This document shows positions 13,516-20,868 of a stretch of 64,000 nucleotides of DNA, piece by piece. A model generated the notes under the pieces. That model worked only from the letters and a program-made list of their open reading frames with translations. It did not search any database and was not told the DNA's origin. Position 1 is the stretch's first letter; each line of letters begins with the position of its first letter. A program made the translations under genes and the position numbers. The DNA is taken from contig CALFNG010000193.1 of assembly GCA_937902985.1 (NCBI GenBank), positions 1 through 64,000 on the forward strand. The letters run 5' to 3'. The DNA comes from an uncultured Myxococcales bacterium (lineage in GTDB: Bacteria; Myxococcota_A; Polyangia; Polyangiales; Polyangiaceae).

Positions 13516-15009
13516 ATGGCCATGTCCTCTAACATCCCCACACCGATGAATCCAGTGGATAATCCGGTGGACTTACCCGAGATCATTGGGGGGAAATATC
13601 GGCCTCGGAGCGTCCTCGGGTTGGGTGCCACGGGTACCGTCTACTGTGTCGAGCACACGTTCACGGGCGACCTTCTCGCACTCAAGGTGCTCCAGCCGCA
13701 CCTCAGCGCGTCGCCCGAGGCGATCGCGCGGTTCAAGGGCGAGGCGCGCACGGCCGCGAAGCTTCGTAGCCGGCACGTCGTTCGCATCTTCGACGCCGAC
13801 GTCGCGCGCGAGCTCGGGAACGCCCCCTATCTCGTGATGGAACTGCTCGAGGGGAGCAATCTCGAGCATCTGGCAAGCGAAGGGCGCATCGCCCCCGAGG
13901 TCGTTGTCGACTGGCTTCGGCAAGCGGCCGTTCCCCTCGAAAGGGCGCACAAGCTCGGGATCGTCCACCGCGATCTCAAACCAGAGAATCTCTTCCTGAC
14001 AACGCTGGACGACGGATCGCCCCTCCTCAAAATCCTCGATTTTGGGATTGCGCGAATCGCGGAGTCGCCAGGGATGACGAAATCCGGGCAGCTCTTCGGG
14101 ACGCCGCTCTACATGGCTCCAGAGCAAGCGCGGGGCGATCCGAGTCAGATCGGTCCCGCCACCGACGTTTTCGCCCTGGGGCTCATCGCCTACAAACTGC
14201 TCATGAGCTCCGAGTATCGGACCGAGGCGGGCCTCGGGCCCATGCTTCACGAGATTCTGAACGAGCCGCTGCGCCCTCCGTCGCAAAAGGGATGTGCCCT
14301 CGGCGACGGCTTCGATCAGTGGTTTCTGCGATCGTGCGACCCGGATCCGAGCCTCCGCTTCACGTCGGTGCGCGAGCAGGTCGAGGCGCTCGCCGTCGCC
14401 CTCGGGTTTCCCGAGGCATCGAATGCCGGCGGGCCGTCGAGCTCCAGTCGCTCGATCGAACCGGCGCGTTCGTCATGGGTCGGGGTGCCTGGCATGGGAG
14501 ACCCCGCGAGCGGGCCGGGAAGAGGACCGGCGAGCTCACGCGCGACCACGATCCATCGCGCGCGGACGGCGCCCGAGCTCGAGACGATCCCGACGTTGTC
14601 CGGTGCCGACGTCGTGGCCGACGTCGTGGCCGACGTCGAGCGCGAGCCGTCGACGCCGAATGGGTGGCGCCGAGGCTTCTTCGCGGTATGCGCGATCGCC
14701 TTGGTGGCCGTTGGAGCCGCGTGGTTCAGGAGGTCTCCGACCGTGCTGGCCGCCACGCCTCGCGTCGCCGGCTGCCCCACCGACACGGTCGCCCTCGCGA
14801 CCCCGGCGAACGACAATGCACCTGCCTGTCCGATCGGAGCCGGGTCGGCGTCGGCGACTCCTGCGGCCCCCGAGACGACGAAGGCGACCACAACGGCGAT
14901 GCGTCCGATAACTGCCGAAGCGAGCCGCGCTCTCCTCGTGCGTCCCATCGCGGCCCCGCCCGCGCACAAGCGCGCGTCGGACGACGACCCGTTGAGCGAT
15001 CAGAAGTGA
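13516..15009 (+). CDS. Membrane-anchored Ser/Thr protein kinase, 497 aa
   Basis: Residues ~25-300 form a Hanks kinase domain: glycine loop GLGATGTVY (~35-43), Lys57 in LALKVL, HRDLKPEN (Asp153), DFG at 175-177 and MAPEQAR. A transmembrane helix lies at about 386-405 and is followed by a ~90-residue Pro/Ala/Thr-rich extracytoplasmic tail with several cysteines. The lipoprotein gene downstream overlaps its stop as GTGA, so the two are translationally coupled, and the TPR gene is divergent just upstream. This arrangement suggests that the kinase tail and the lipoprotein meet outside the membrane. Confidence 0.93.
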   Translation: MAMSSNIPTPMNPVDNPVDLPEIIGGKYRPRSVLGLGATGTVYCVEHTFTGDLLALKVLQPHLSASPEAIARFKGEARTAAKLRSRHVVRIFDADVARELGNAPYLVMELLEGSNLEHLASEGRIAPEVVVDWLRQAAVPLERAHKLGIVHRDLKPENLFLTTLDDGSPLLKILDFGIARIAESPGMTKSGQLFGTPLYMAPEQARGDPSQIGPATDVFALGLIAYKLLMSSEYRTEAGLGPMLHEILNEPLRPPSQKGCALGDGFDQWFLRSCDPDPSLRFTSVREQVEALAVALGFPEASNAGGPSSSSRSIEPARSSWVGVPGMGDPASGPGRGPASSRATTIHRARTAPELETIPTLSGADVVADVVADVEREPSTPNGWRRGFFAVCAIALVAVGAAWFRRSPTVLAATPRVAGCPTDTVALATPANDNAPACPIGAGSASATPAAPETTKATTTAMRPITAEASRALLVRPIAAPPAHKRASDDDPLSDQK

Positions 15010-16412
15010 GCCGACGCCTGCTCGGTAGCGTCGGTCGCCTTGGCCGCGTCGGGTGGCTCGCGGTCCTCGCCACGGCCGGCTGCGAGCAGATTCTCTCGCT
15101 CCACGAGCGGTCCGAGGCGACCGATGGTGGCGTGTCGGATCTCGCCGTTGCCGCCGGTGGCGAACAGGCCGACGCGAGGGCTCCGGGAACCGGGCATTGC
15201 GGACCTTTGCTCTATACGTCCATGTCCTGCGCCGCTTGCATGGACAAGAGCTGCTGCTCGGAGGCGAAGGCGTGTGCGAACGCTCCAGCCTGCCACGAAG
15301 CGTCGGACTGCCTCGCGTCGTGCGCGGAGACCGACGCGATGTGCCGGGCGCGATGCGCCGAGTTCTACACGCTCCCCGAAACGCTCATGGCTCTACGATC
15401 CTGCCGTCTCGGTCCTTGCGCGGGGGCGTGCAGTAGCTCGTGCGGCGAGTTTGCATCGCCGATCCCTGGCTGCCAGACGTGTCAAGAGGCCACGTGCTGC
15501 GCGCAGTCGACGAGCTGCGCCACCAACACGTCGTGCGCTGACCTCGACCTCTGCGTCTCGAACTGCTTCGGGACGGCGTCGTGTCCCAACGATTGCCAGA
15601 CGCAATACGCGCAGGGCGTGAAGAACTACACGGCGTCGCTCGCGTGCACCAACCAGTGCGCATCGCAATGCGCCGCCGGGCAGGCGTGGTCGTGTCTGGA
15701 CACCCCCGTCGCATGGCCGAAGCCAAATGCCGTGGGAAACGTCGCCTTCGCGGTCACCTTCGTCACCTTCACCTCCGAGGCGCCCTTCGTCGGCGTGATG
15801 GTCAAGGCGTGCGGGAAGTTCGACATCCCCTGCTTGTCTCCCATCGACGCCGCCCAGACGGACGCAACGGGGCGGGTGACGGTGCACGTTCCCGCGGGCC
15901 TGTTGGGGTTCGATGGTTATCTCGATATCACCGGCGGCAGCGTGAGCGGCACGGGTGCGGCGGTATTCCCCACGATCTGGTATCCGATCCCCTATGTCAT
16001 CGCCGACGGCTGGCGCGGCCGGACGCAAATCCTTTCCTCGGACGAGTTTCTCGAGCTGTCGGCGGCCACCGCGACTACCCCGGATCCGGCGCGCGGAAAC
16101 ATCGCGATGAATGCCGCCGACTGCGCCTTCACGCCCGCGGCAGGCGTGCGCTTTGCAGTGGACTCGTCCGATTCGGCGACCGTGAGCTACTACCTCGTGG
16201 GCGGCTTGCCGACGACGACGGCTACCGCGACCGACTCGTCCGGCGTAGCCGCATTCGTGAACCTTCCCACCACGGCGCCGGGCCGGCTCACGCTGGTCAG
16301 CGCAAGCGCGACCAGCGGGCCGGCGCAGGGCAAGACCCTCGGCTCGCTGAGCTTCATCGTTCGTCCCGGCACGCTGACGACATCCGGGTTGTTCCCGCCG
16401 GTGCCGCACTGA
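15006..16412 (+). CDS. Cysteine-rich lipoprotein, 468 aa
   Basis: Translation starts at the GTG at 15006, whose GTGA overlaps the kinase stop. The signal peptide ends in ATAGC (Cys26). Residues ~60-225 contain about 29 cysteines in imperfect repeats (SCAACMDKSCC, TCQEATCCAQSTSCA, CASQCAAGQAWSC), a pattern typical of secreted, disulfide-rich myxobacterial proteins. The C-terminal ~235 residues resemble two Ig-like or carboxypeptidase-regulatory beta domains (DATGRVTVHVPAG, DSSGVAAFVNLP). Probably a surface protein; function unknown. The gene converges on the aminotransferase-fusion gene with 36 bp between the stops. Confidence 0.87.
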   Translation: MSRRLLGSVGRLGRVGWLAVLATAGCEQILSLHERSEATDGGVSDLAVAAGGEQADARAPGTGHCGPLLYTSMSCAACMDKSCCSEAKACANAPACHEASDCLASCAETDAMCRARCAEFYTLPETLMALRSCRLGPCAGACSSSCGEFASPIPGCQTCQEATCCAQSTSCATNTSCADLDLCVSNCFGTASCPNDCQTQYAQGVKNYTASLACTNQCASQCAAGQAWSCLDTPVAWPKPNAVGNVAFAVTFVTFTSEAPFVGVMVKACGKFDIPCLSPIDAAQTDATGRVTVHVPAGLLGFDGYLDITGGSVSGTGAAVFPTIWYPIPYVIADGWRGRTQILSSDEFLELSAATATTPDPARGNIAMNAADCAFTPAAGVRFAVDSSDSATVSYYLVGGLPTTTATATDSSGVAAFVNLPTTAPGRLTLVSASATSGPAQGKTLGSLSFIVRPGTLTTSGLFPPVPH

Positions 16413-16448: not shown

Positions 16449-19136
16449 TCAGGTGGCGACTCGCCGCAACCGAACATCGTGCACGCCCGATCGGGCGCGC
16501 CACGCCGAGAGATCGAGCGGCCGTAGCCGCGCTCGGAGTTCCGCCAGCTTGAATCCGTGCCTGGTGGCCAGCACCCGGAGAAAGTCGAGAGTGCGCTCAT
16601 CGAGGTCGCGGCCGAGGCTCGTGTGCTCGTAATGATGCTCCAGGGCCAGCATCATCGTCTCGGCCATGCAGGCATACGCGAGGCCGGGTGCGAGGCCGAA
16701 GTGAAAGCCGAGGTCGCGCCGTCCCGGGACTTCGACGATTCCGCCGTCGATGACGAGGACGTCGGTTCGACGAGAGAGCTCCTCACTCACGTTGGCAGGA
16801 CGTGACAGGTCGCACACCACGGTGCCCGGACGAACCATGTCGGCGCGAAGGAGCTCTTCGGGGGTGCTGGTCGCGAGGAAGATCAAGTCCGACTGGGCGG
16901 CGGTGGCCGCGAGATCCGTCGTCCAACGAACGGGAAGATCACGCACTTCGTGGAGGAGGCGCGATTCGAGGCCGTCGTTCAGCTGTATGCGCCCGTTCGG
17001 CGGGAGCTCGGCACCGCAGGGCAAGAGGCTCAGCCCGTACGCGACGGTGTTCTCCTGAAGGTTAGCGCCCTCACTCGACTGGCGTCGCAGGTAGCGGACC
17101 ATGCGCGCCAGGATCATGGCGTAGCGGCCTCGCATGGAGCCTGCGTCACTCTCGCGAGAGACCAGGACGAGCGAAGCGACGCGCTCGGCGACCAGCGACG
17201 CGAGAGCACTTCCGATGCTGCCGCCGCCGCCCACGATGGCGGCGCGACTGTTCTCGAGCTTCCCGGCGGTGATACGCGAGGCCTCGAGCGCCGCTTCGAT
17301 CGCCGATACGACGGTGTAGCTATTTCCCGTGGTCAGCGAGACGCCGACCTTCAAGAGCGTTCGCAGGTTCTGGGCGACCACCGACGTGTAGCCCCCGAGC
17401 CCGACGATCTTCGCGCCACGCTCCTTGCCCAGGCGCACGGCCGCGGCGACGTCTTCGAGCGCCTCTTCAGGCGAGAGCCGCAGCAGCTGAGCGGTCGACT
17501 TGGGCAGCATGATGAAGTCGCCCCGAGCCGTTCGACCTGTGGCGGATTCGATGAGAACGGTGGAGCCTACGAAAGGCTTCGCCGAATCCTCGAACCGGCC
17601 GGCCAGCTCTTCGAGCTCGGATGGCCGAAAGCGCATGAGCGAACGGTCGAACTCGGCCAGACTCTTCCCGTCGAGCATGTGGACGATGAACGCGAACCGA
17701 CCCGCGTCCGCTTCGCGATCAGGCGTCACCGCGCGGAGCTCGCTCGCGCGATAGATCCCCGAGGTCTTCGGTGGCACGGGTTCGCGCGCCGCGAGAACCG
17801 GCGCGATCAAGCGGTCGGACTGCCCCGAAGCCATCACCGCGGCGAGGCCTCGAAACGCACGGACGATCCAGTCGCATTCATCGCGTGTGACCGTGAGGGG
17901 CGGCTGAACGCGGAGCACGTTGTTGCCGCTCAGGGTCGGCGCGACCCGAAGCCGGCCCAAGTTGAGGAGATAGCTCGCGGCAAAGTGCGCCAGGCCGCCG
18001 CCGAGCAGGGACATGAACGAGCCGACGCCGCGCTCGATCATCGATTTGTCGGTCGCGAGCTCCACGCCGAGCATCAAGCCTCGGCCGCGCACGTCGAGGA
18101 TCACGGACGGATGTTCGCGCCGGATCGATTCGAGGCCAGCCTTCAGGAAGGTGCCCCGCCGCGCGACCTGTTCGACGAGGGCATTGCCGTCGGACGTGAG
18201 ACGCTCGAGGACGCTGAGCCCGACGCGCATCGCGAGCGCGTTCCCGGCGAACGTCGACGAGTGGCGCAGCGCGAAATCGCGCGAACAGGCGCGGGGCCCG
18301 AGCAAGCATGCAGAGACGGGCACGAGGCCGCCACCCAGGGCCTTGGCCAGGGTCATCGCGTCGGGCGTGATTCCCTCGCTCGAGCACGCGAAGAGTTCGC
18401 CGGTTCGGCCGAGGCCGGTCTGGATCTCGTCGACGATGAGCAGCACCCCGTGCCGATCGCACAGCCGTCGCACGCCCCTGAGATACCCGGCTGGCGGCTC
18501 GACGACCCCACCTTCTCCCTGGATCGGCTCGACGAGGAACGCGGCCGTCTCCGCGCCCCTTTCGAGGAGGGCCTGCTCGAGAGCATCGAGGTCGCCGTAG
18601 CGAACGACCCCGAAGCCGTTTGCCGGCGCTCCGGTTCCCTCCTGGAAGTACGCGCGGCCGGTCGCCGATAGCGCGCCGAGGGTCTTGCCGTGGAATCCGT
18701 TCTCCGTCGAGAGGATACCCAACTTTCCCGTGGCCATGCGGCAAGCCTTGATCGCGGCCTCGACGGCCTCCGTGCCACTGTTGCCGAAGGTCACCTGCCG
18801 TAGACCCGGCGGAGCGAGGCGAAGTAGCTCTCTCGCCAGCTCGCCCGCTGCAGGCAGGAGCGACGGCTGAGCCATGCACGGCTCGCGGGCCAGCTCGCAA
18901 TCGCGAATGGCCTGCCAGACGATCTCGGGATTGTGACCGAACGGCAGGGCGCCATAGCCCGACACCGCGTCGAGATACTCATGCCCGTCGGCGTCGACCA
19001 GGCGACTCCCTTCGGCCCAAACGAAACACTTGTCCAGTCTAAGGCGCGCGAGCAGCTCGCCCAGGTGCGGATTCACGAACGAGGTGTAGAGGGGCTCGTT
19101 CTCGCTTTCCGGACTGAATTGGTGCGGTGTTGCCAT
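16449..19136 (-). CDS. Bifunctional class III aminotransferase / acyl-thioester reductase (TamH/AAR-like), 895 aa
   Basis: The ATG at 19136 has GGGAG eight bases upstream. Residues ~15-440 are a class III PLP aminotransferase with GNSGTEAVE, VDEIQTGLGRTG and the Schiff-base Lys265 in TLAKALGGG. Residues ~500-865 match the long-chain acyl-ACP reductase (AAR) fold: VGLGGYTSVV (~580), LTTGNSYTVV, a nucleotide-binding GGGGSIGSA (~640), a PGTVVCDLSRP strand, GGIVEVPG, and Cys823 in ACMAE aligning with the catalytic cysteine of cyanobacterial AAR (FACFAEA). From family knowledge, one protein would reduce an acyl-ACP or acyl-CoA to an aldehyde and transaminate it to an amine, as TamH does in tambjamine synthesis. 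No carrier protein or pathway genes lie beside it. Confidence 0.86.
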   Translation of the reverse strand: MATPHQFSPESENEPLYTSFVNPHLGELLARLRLDKCFVWAEGSRLVDADGHEYLDAVSGYGALPFGHNPEIVWQAIRDCELAREPCMAQPSLLPAAGELARELLRLAPPGLRQVTFGNSGTEAVEAAIKACRMATGKLGILSTENGFHGKTLGALSATGRAYFQEGTGAPANGFGVVRYGDLDALEQALLERGAETAAFLVEPIQGEGGVVEPPAGYLRGVRRLCDRHGVLLIVDEIQTGLGRTGELFACSSEGITPDAMTLAKALGGGLVPVSACLLGPRACSRDFALRHSSTFAGNALAMRVGLSVLERLTSDGNALVEQVARRGTFLKAGLESIRREHPSVILDVRGRGLMLGVELATDKSMIERGVGSFMSLLGGGLAHFAASYLLNLGRLRVAPTLSGNNVLRVQPPLTVTRDECDWIVRAFRGLAAVMASGQSDRLIAPVLAAREPVPPKTSGIYRASELRAVTPDREADAGRFAFIVHMLDGKSLAEFDRSLMRFRPSELEELAGRFEDSAKPFVGSTVLIESATGRTARGDFIMLPKSTAQLLRLSPEEALEDVAAAVRLGKERGAKIVGLGGYTSVVAQNLRTLLKVGVSLTTGNSYTVVSAIEAALEASRITAGKLENSRAAIVGGGGSIGSALASLVAERVASLVLVSRESDAGSMRGRYAMILARMVRYLRRQSSEGANLQENTVAYGLSLLPCGAELPPNGRIQLNDGLESRLLHEVRDLPVRWTTDLAATAAQSDLIFLATSTPEELLRADMVRPGTVVCDLSRPANVSEELSRRTDVLVIDGGIVEVPGRRDLGFHFGLAPGLAYACMAETMMLALEHHYEHTSLGRDLDERTLDFLRVLATRHGFKLAELRARLRPLDLSAWRARSGVHDVRLRRVAT

Positions 19137-19386
19137 GCTGCTCGGCTCCCGCGCTCCGGCGCGCGCCACCTTCACGGTTGGGCTGGTGTGATAGTGTCTC
19201 CGTGTGCGTGACTCTGCCACGTCGTGATGTACCGCGCGCGGGGAATTTGCGAATTTTTTTCGTGCGCAACGAGACGCACGCCGGAAACATCCCCGCCATC
19301 TCGGCCCGAGACGACGTCTGGCTATCGTGACCGGTCGCGATCATCGAACGACCGCGAATCGGAAAATAGCGATCGGCGTCACACTC

Positions 19387-19430
19387 TCAAGGCTGGCTCA
19401 AGGCTGGCTCAAGGCTGGCTCAAGGCTGGC
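19387..19430. repeat. Four perfect 11-bp tandem repeats
   Basis: The unit TCAAGGCTGGC is repeated four times without a mismatch (19387-19397, 19398-19408, 19409-19419, 19420-19430). The last copy supplies the TGA stop and final residues of the DUF1552 gene, so the array is a duplication of that gene's very end into the 3' flank. Confidence 0.95.
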
Positions 19431-20868
19431 GCTGAAGCTCGGTCAGTGGTCCCCGAAGCGACAGCGCCGTCCCGTCGGCGGCCACGGCGTCGGTCATCCC
19501 GAAGGTCGTATCCGGCTGCCCCATCGCCTGCATCAAGCTCACGTGGAGCCGGTTGTGCGCGGGCCCGATGAGCGGTTGGTTGGGGAGGGGGGTGGGGAGT
19601 GTCCGCGGATAACGCACGTAGCGCCCGGTGTTGAAGTAGCCATTGCAGCCTCCAGCGAGGAGAGTGCAAATATCGAAGTGCTGGTGGGTCGGCGTCGCGA
19701 GCTCGGTGACCCAGACGACGACCGTGTGATCGAGCAGCGTCCCCGCGCCTTCGCTCACCGAATCGAGCTGCTGCAGCAGGTACGCGACGTGGCCCGCGTG
19801 CCAGGCGTCGAGGTCGGTCATCGCTTGTTCGGCGAGAGGGCTGTACATCTGCCCGCACGAGGTATTGCCGAGGATCGACTGGTGGGCATATCCGTGAAAC
19901 GTCGCGTCTGCGGGGTACCCGAGCTCGGGGCACTGGGGCACGGGCGCCGAGAACGTCACGACGCGGGTCAGGTCACAGGCCAGCGCCAGCCGGATGAGGC
20001 TCATGAACTGCCTCACCGACGTCGCGGTGTTGTCGAAGGTCGCGTCGCACCTGGCCATCGGCCCGGCCGACCCGAGGCTGACCTCGAGCTCGCGCACCAG
20101 AGCGCGGTGCTGCTCGAGCTTCTGGCGCCCTTCGGCGCCGAGCTTCGGCGCGAGCAGATCGTACTCGCGACCCACCGCGTCGAGCACCGACGGCCGCAGC
20201 GAACGGAGGAGGTCCGCGCGGCTCGTGGTGGCCGGCGCCGGGATGGCATAGCCGAGCAGATCGGAGAAGGCAGCGTTGGGGTCGGAGACCATCGGCGTCG
20301 CCTGACCGGGCCCGAGATACGAGAAGGGCGAGACGACGGAGTTCGGGATGTAGTCGAACCCGTAGACGCGCGAGTCGAAGCGCCCGGGGCCCGCCGTGCG
20401 CATCGCGAGCTCCTGATCGAGCGTCCGCGCGCCGCCGGAGCAATACGTGCCCGTGCGCTGCAGCGCGCGACTGCCCGTCAAGACGTCGGCGACGCCGATT
20501 TGGTGATTGTTCAAGTCGCCCGTGCCCGCCCGGGTGACCGCGGCGATGTCGGCGAGGGCCGACGTGTGCGAGAGGCCTTCGATCGCCAGAAGGCGATCGC
20601 GATACCCGTAGAGGGGCCGCAACGTCGGGCTCAGATCGGCGGCGTCGAGATCCAGGAGGGAACGTTCGGCGAACTGGTCGGCGGGCCCTCCGGGAATGGC
20701 CATGTTCCAGGCGTTCGGAATGTGCCCGTGCGGTTGCACGTAGAAGACGATGCGCGACGGCGCCGCGGGAGCGCCTGCGAGCGCGGAGCGCTCTCGCGAG
20801 AAGACGCCAAGTCCCGCGCCCACGCCGAGTCCGAGCCCCTGGAGCAGCTGCCGCCTCCGGAGGTTCAC
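19420..20868 (-). CDS. Tat-exported DUF1552 family protein, 482 aa
   Basis: The N-terminus MNLRRRQLLQGLGLGVGAG is a twin-arginine signal with a hydrophobic core, so a folded protein is probably exported. The body matches DUF1552 as I know it: FYVQPHGHIPNAW, LLAIEGLSH, LTRVVTFSAP, HGYAHQ and a VVVWVTELATPTHQHFD region close to sulfatase/DUF1501 folds. The start codon is GTG, placed one base after the stop of the partner gene at 20870. DUF1552 and DUF1592-type proteins nearly always occur as such pairs. Biochemical function is unproven; roles in extracellular polymer turnover have been suggested. The stop lies inside a tandem repeat. Confidence 0.9.
   Translation of the reverse strand: MNLRRRQLLQGLGLGVGAGLGVFSRERSALAGAPAAPSRIVFYVQPHGHIPNAWNMAIPGGPADQFAERSLLDLDAADLSPTLRPLYGYRDRLLAIEGLSHTSALADIAAVTRAGTGDLNNHQIGVADVLTGSRALQRTGTYCSGGARTLDQELAMRTAGPGRFDSRVYGFDYIPNSVVSPFSYLGPGQATPMVSDPNAAFSDLLGYAIPAPATTSRADLLRSLRPSVLDAVGREYDLLAPKLGAEGRQKLEQHRALVRELEVSLGSAGPMARCDATFDNTATSVRQFMSLIRLALACDLTRVVTFSAPVPQCPELGYPADATFHGYAHQSILGNTSCGQMYSPLAEQAMTDLDAWHAGHVAYLLQQLDSVSEGAGTLLDHTVVVWVTELATPTHQHFDICTLLAGGCNGYFNTGRYVRYPRTLPTPLPNQPLIGPAHNRLHVSLMQAMGQPDTTFGMTDAVAADGTALSLRGPLTELQRQP

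Follow-up and report, generated by a model that had tools for sequence, protein, structure and literature searches.

A stand-alone transaminase–thioester reductase fusion from a myxobacterium is a probable TamH-type alkyl amine synthase

Can a single gene of a myxobacterium, standing apart from any recognisable pathway, make an alkyl amine from an acyl thioester? The question arises from a 64,000-nucleotide stretch of DNA from an uncultured Myxococcales bacterium (contig CALFNG010000193.1), hereafter the window, which carries a gene for a transaminase fused to a thioester reductase (TA-TR). Domain content, structural models and the analogy to characterised enzymes suggest that the product is, with good probability, a stand-alone fusion of the TamH type that would reduce a carrier-bound acyl chain to an aldehyde and aminate this to a primary alkyl amine.

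The TA-TR gene reads on the minus strand, where translation from an ATG gives 895 uninterrupted residues; the plus strand of the same interval contains stops. The sequence-only reading had placed the gene at 16449-19136, where the frame is indeed found, and left the strand unsaid. An alternative GTG start at 19220 gives 923 residues. The codon bias matches that of the host (GC3 of 0.81 and a codon-usage distance of 0.17, within the range of neighbouring genes) and gives no hint of a recent foreign source, and about 50 full-length relatives from other phyla align over about residues 17-880 with 37-49% identity. The host-like codon usage and these relatives together mark the frame as a real gene and not a chance ORF, and the 895-residue fusion is thus confirmed at these coordinates (Table 1). 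Even the nearest relatives are only about 48% identical to the window protein. Its own genome holds one full-length copy only; six further matches are confined to residues 40-476.

Table 1. Window coordinates of the TA-TR gene, its predicted domains and residues, and its flanking features
Feature	Position	Strand	Basis or remark
Whole gene, 895-aa TA-TR fusion	16449..19136	minus	ATG at 19136, stop 16449-16451; translation
Class III PLP aminotransferase domain, residues 40-428	17853..19019	minus	PF00202 (Aminotran_3), E 2e-86
Lys265, predicted PLP-binding lysine	18342..18344	minus	K in 59/59 aligned rows
AAR-type thioester reductase domain, about residues 479-880	16497..17702	minus	Profile and fold matches
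GxxGxxG nucleotide-binding motif, residues 636-642	17211..17231	minus	G636/G639/G642 in 59/59 rows
Cys823, predicted acyl-accepting cysteine	16668..16670	minus	C in 58/58 covering rows; aligned with AAR Cys
Upstream gap of 283 bp to DUF1552 gene	19137..19419	minus	One promoter-like match, 19390-19363; consensus match only
DUF1552 gene, upstream neighbour	19420-20868	minus	Same strand as TA-TR gene
Cys-rich frame, GTG start	about 15006-16412	plus	Downstream of and convergent with TA-TR gene

The N-terminal half is a complete class III PLP aminotransferase, as the sequence-only reading had proposed, and its Lys265 is invariant (the conservation counts in Table 1 cover 59 aligned rows, the window protein among them). 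PigE, the prodigiosin enzyme (PDB 4ppm), is the best PDB match of the window protein by sequence and also by fold, where a full-length predicted model (pLDDT 84, pTM 0.75) places it first among class III transaminases. The top NCBIfam model is again PigE, with 523.4 bits (E 1.2e-156) against a cut-off of 850.

The C-terminal half belongs to the acyl-ACP reductase (AAR) type. Searched alone by sequence, it matches the N-terminal domain of PigE (E 5.5e-21) and AAR (6jzq, 4.5e-12). A profile built from 26 C-terminal halves together with stand-alone relatives improves these values to 3e-54 and 1e-41, respectively; an adenylation-domain protein (9e4x, 9e4s) follows at about 1e-12, and other dehydrogenases appear from about 1e-6. 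The AlphaFold2 model of this half (pLDDT 87, pTM 0.88) finds its best fold match in AAR (6jzu/6jzy, E about 1e-20, TMt 0.78-0.80), ahead of the carmabin TAD structures and of others at about 1e-6 or weaker. Cys823, in the motif ACMAET, aligns with the catalytic cysteine of AAR in ACFAEA; in AAR, this residue (Cys294) carries the acyl group (PMC9594044). The one row left out of the Cys823 count is L103, whose frame as used does not include that end. The AAR landmarks named at the outset therefore stand: two outcomes had been set beforehand as grounds for giving up the assignment, non-conservation of Lys265 or Cys823 and a better match to another dehydrogenase family, and neither was found. Shikimate, FolD and other dehydrogenases were considered for this half and rejected, as they give weak matches only and AAR matches far better.

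A protein of this build is not without precedent. PtTamH of tambjamine YP1 biosynthesis (WP_009837236.1), 941 residues long, consists of a transaminase followed by an AAR-like reductase with a GxxGxxG motif and C887 (PMC9594044). The window protein likewise has an N-terminal class III transaminase with its lysine and a C-terminal AAR-like reductase with GxxGxxG and the cysteine, so the TamH-like order holds; the likeness rests on architecture and on the residues named for PtTamH (PMC9594044). PigE, for which there is evidence of both thioester reduction and aldehyde transamination, has the same two domains, and its Cys296 is the counterpart of AAR Cys294 (PMC8341465); it differs in having the reductase first and the transaminase second. 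The cyanobacterial AAR structures (6jzq/6jzu/6jzy) share the C-terminal fold, with a TMt of about 0.8, and the aligned catalytic cysteine, whereas AAR stands by itself as a protein and carries no transaminase domain. The window protein scores 66.9 bits with the long-chain acyl-ACP reductase equivalog (TIGR04058), below its cut-off of 449.7. The carmabin TAD structures (PDB 9e4s, 9e4u, 9e50, 9e56), whose entry titles name an amino acid adenylation domain protein, rank second among the fold groups matched by the C-terminal half, at 15-16% identity and E about 1e-17 to 1e-16. The transaminase/AAR fusion is thus an already published kind of enzyme, and because its domain order and landmarks match PtTamH (reversed in PigE), the window protein is an added member of that kind. 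That distant relatives exist in Chitinimonas, Paucibacter and Streptomyces had already been pointed out in the PtTamH study (PMC9594044).

The biochemistry of PtTamH also qualifies the sequence-only reading in one respect. PtTamH produced a C12 amine in vitro with TamA (a ligase-ACP), L-Glu and NADH, and no amine from free C12-CoA (PMC9594044), so the one-protein route depends, in the characterised case, on an acyl carrier. We infer every catalytic step of the window fusion, as well as its dependence on ACP, its cofactor, the channelling, the amino donor, the chain length and the product, along the following lines. An acyl group borne by a phosphopantetheine carrier, most likely ACP, would be transferred to Cys823 of the C-terminal domain, and NAD(P)H would reduce the bound thioester to an aldehyde. 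The aldehyde would pass to the N-terminal domain, where Lys265 and PLP would aminate it with an amino acid donor to give a primary alkyl amine. The acyl carrier would have to be supplied by fatty acid synthesis, or else by a ligase/carrier or PKS encoded at some unlinked site of the genome.

Within the window, no such partner was found near the gene. PtTamH is encoded in a 19-gene tam cluster with TamA, in contrast to the window, where no such genes were found. FAAL/AMP-ligase, ACP and desaturase queries gave no BLAST match among window ORFs of at least 80 residues, so that a linked TamA-like ligase-ACP, the mark of a tambjamine pathway, is missing from the window by BLAST; Pfam likewise revealed no ligase, carrier or desaturase among 30 predicted window proteins besides TA-TR (2.0 to 54 kb; the 54-64 kb segment and the remaining ORFs were covered by BLAST). 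No PKS was found in the window, and no pyrrole or PigD/PigB-type gene was seen among its Pfam-annotated genes. The other Pfam-annotated genes include those for Ser/Thr kinases, Ada/AlkA, O6-methylguanine methyltransferase, DUF1592, OsmC, zinc alcohol dehydrogenase, class I/II aminotransferase, aldehyde dehydrogenase, UbiA, AstA and two-component proteins. The upstream gap and its promoter-like match suggest that the TA-TR gene is its own transcription unit, and it looks monocistronic and orphan, in agreement with the earlier statement that none of the expected partners is nearby. Two side features flank the gene. A perfect 11-bp tandem repeat of 4.1 copies (CTCAAGGCTGG) occupies positions 19386-19430, lying partly in the 3' end of the DUF1552 gene and partly in the upstream gap of the TA-TR gene. 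The Cys-rich frame on the other side overlaps the stop of a kinase gene (13516-15009), and the longer frame that holds it has no Pfam match.

The gene settings of some relatives place them close to acyl activation. We clustered 59 loci, applied Pfam to chosen members and searched for ligase, ACP and desaturase by BLAST. Ten Pseudomonas/Chromobacterium loci have the TA-TR gene in one conserved cluster that also encodes a FAAL-type ligase and a desaturase, and in the Acidobacteria locus L050 a FAAL-ACP gene adjoins it. Two Chloroflexi proteins (L026:7901-12517, 1538 residues, assigned by Pfam; L027:706-5376, 1556 residues, assigned by BLAST to the ligase and ACP of L026) are single FAAL-ACP-TA-TR chains with TA-TR at the C-terminus; each is possibly a free-acid-to-amine enzyme in one protein. 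A Lysobacterales protein (L060:6911-11212, 1433 residues) runs transaminase-reductase-AMP ligase, with the ligase at the opposite end from the Chloroflexi chains, and is followed by an MMPL transporter. In genome G104, from the same order as the window genome, a ligase-ACP, a PKS (KS-AT-DH-ER-KR-ACP) and a TA-TR fusion 43% identical to the window protein stand in a row (L101:406-11403), with gaps of 9 and 51 bp. Fusion or operon linkage of such relatives to FAAL, ACP, desaturase or PKS supports acyl-thioester-to-amine chemistry as the predicted function of the family.

The Pseudomonas/Chromobacterium cluster (L036:5918-22568 and nine similar loci) contains, beside the FAAL-type ligase, desaturase and TA-TR fusion, a GNAT-like protein, a MacB-like ABC transporter, a LolA-like protein, an epimerase and an acyl-CoA dehydrogenase; a literature search for a Pseudomonas FAAL-desaturase-transaminase cluster found no paper. 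Stand-alone reductase relatives (L066-L087), mostly from Firmicutes, have conserved neighbourhoods with genes for pantothenate kinase, Dus, MFS, LigB/AMMECR1 and tRNA synthetase, which gave no pathway clue. Among the 38 relatives whose flanks reach 4.5 kb or more in each direction, 25 have no linked ligase by BLAST. Orphan status is therefore common, and the window copy is less exceptional in this respect than the sequence-only reading had taken it to be.

What the orphan acts on is where the readings diverge. Two points weigh against the TamH-type reading: the window has no linked acyl-ACP source, and at about 48% identity to the nearest relatives the substrate may differ. The fusion could instead release, in trans, the product of an unlinked FAAL/PKS/NRPS assembly line in its own genome, yielding an amine-terminated secondary metabolite and not a free fatty amine; the G104 homologue, directly after a ligase-ACP and a PKS, speaks for this. 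Elsewhere in the window genome, contigs C398 (two), C466 and C530 carry four strong FAAL-type matches (three of the four were scanned against NCBIfam), and there are frames of 4697 and 6146 residues on C398 and C329 with repeated weak ligase matches. None of these assembly lines is linked to the TA-TR gene, and we regard trans-acting release as a somewhat unlikely alternative. In a literature search on myxobacterial fatty amines, the titles listed were off-topic chemistry.

It is less probable still that the protein acts like PigE on a short or branched beta-keto-type thioester to give a small or cyclising amine. PigE is both its best NCBIfam family and its best PDB match, but the score stays well under the equivalog cut-off (NF053554), the domain order is reversed, and the annotated window genes include no PigD/PigB-type or pyrrole gene; on score and order the window protein was rejected as a PigE ortholog. 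Loss of one domain's activity, leaving transamination alone or aldehyde formation alone, is conceivable for an orphan on a long tree branch, where constraint may be relaxed, but the frame is uninterrupted and neither domain has lost a landmark residue, making this very improbable. The stand-alone TamH-type fusion thus remains our preferred reading.

The distribution of the TA-TR fusion bears on its role. Only 3 of 184 genomes in the order of the window genome, itself counted, match at E 1e-100, and two congeners give no match at E 1e-60; the distribution in this order is patchy. A Firmicutes family, that of L008 (its records are titled Syntrophomonadaceae), has matches in 35 of 43 genomes, 34 of them with one match each, some partial. 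In the remaining genome, G520, residues 17-346 match on one contig and residues 349-880 on another, perhaps a single gene split by contig ends. The fusion is apparently near-core and single copy in this family; in the family of L031, a Firmicutes copy from the named strain Sporotomaculum syntrophicum, only 2 of 16 genomes match. We place no trust in where the window protein falls in the tree, as long branches meet there. A gene that is near-core in one Firmicutes family or more, and scattered among other genomes such as that of the window, leaves room for a further idea, which we consider doubtful: stand-alone TA-TR would be a housekeeping fatty-amine synthase making amine-headed lipids of an unrecognised class from ordinary acyl-ACP, and TamH and PigE would be its specialised relatives.

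Taken alone, the window gene is a small step forward. The family as a whole raises the question of what is produced by the orphan copies and by those that are near-core in Firmicutes, and offers further candidates for the enzymatic production of fatty amines. TA-TR fusions often occur without a linked pathway, and a known type of biocatalyst, which turns a carrier-bound acyl chain into an amine within one protein, occurs more widely than in the antibiotic pathways from which it was published.
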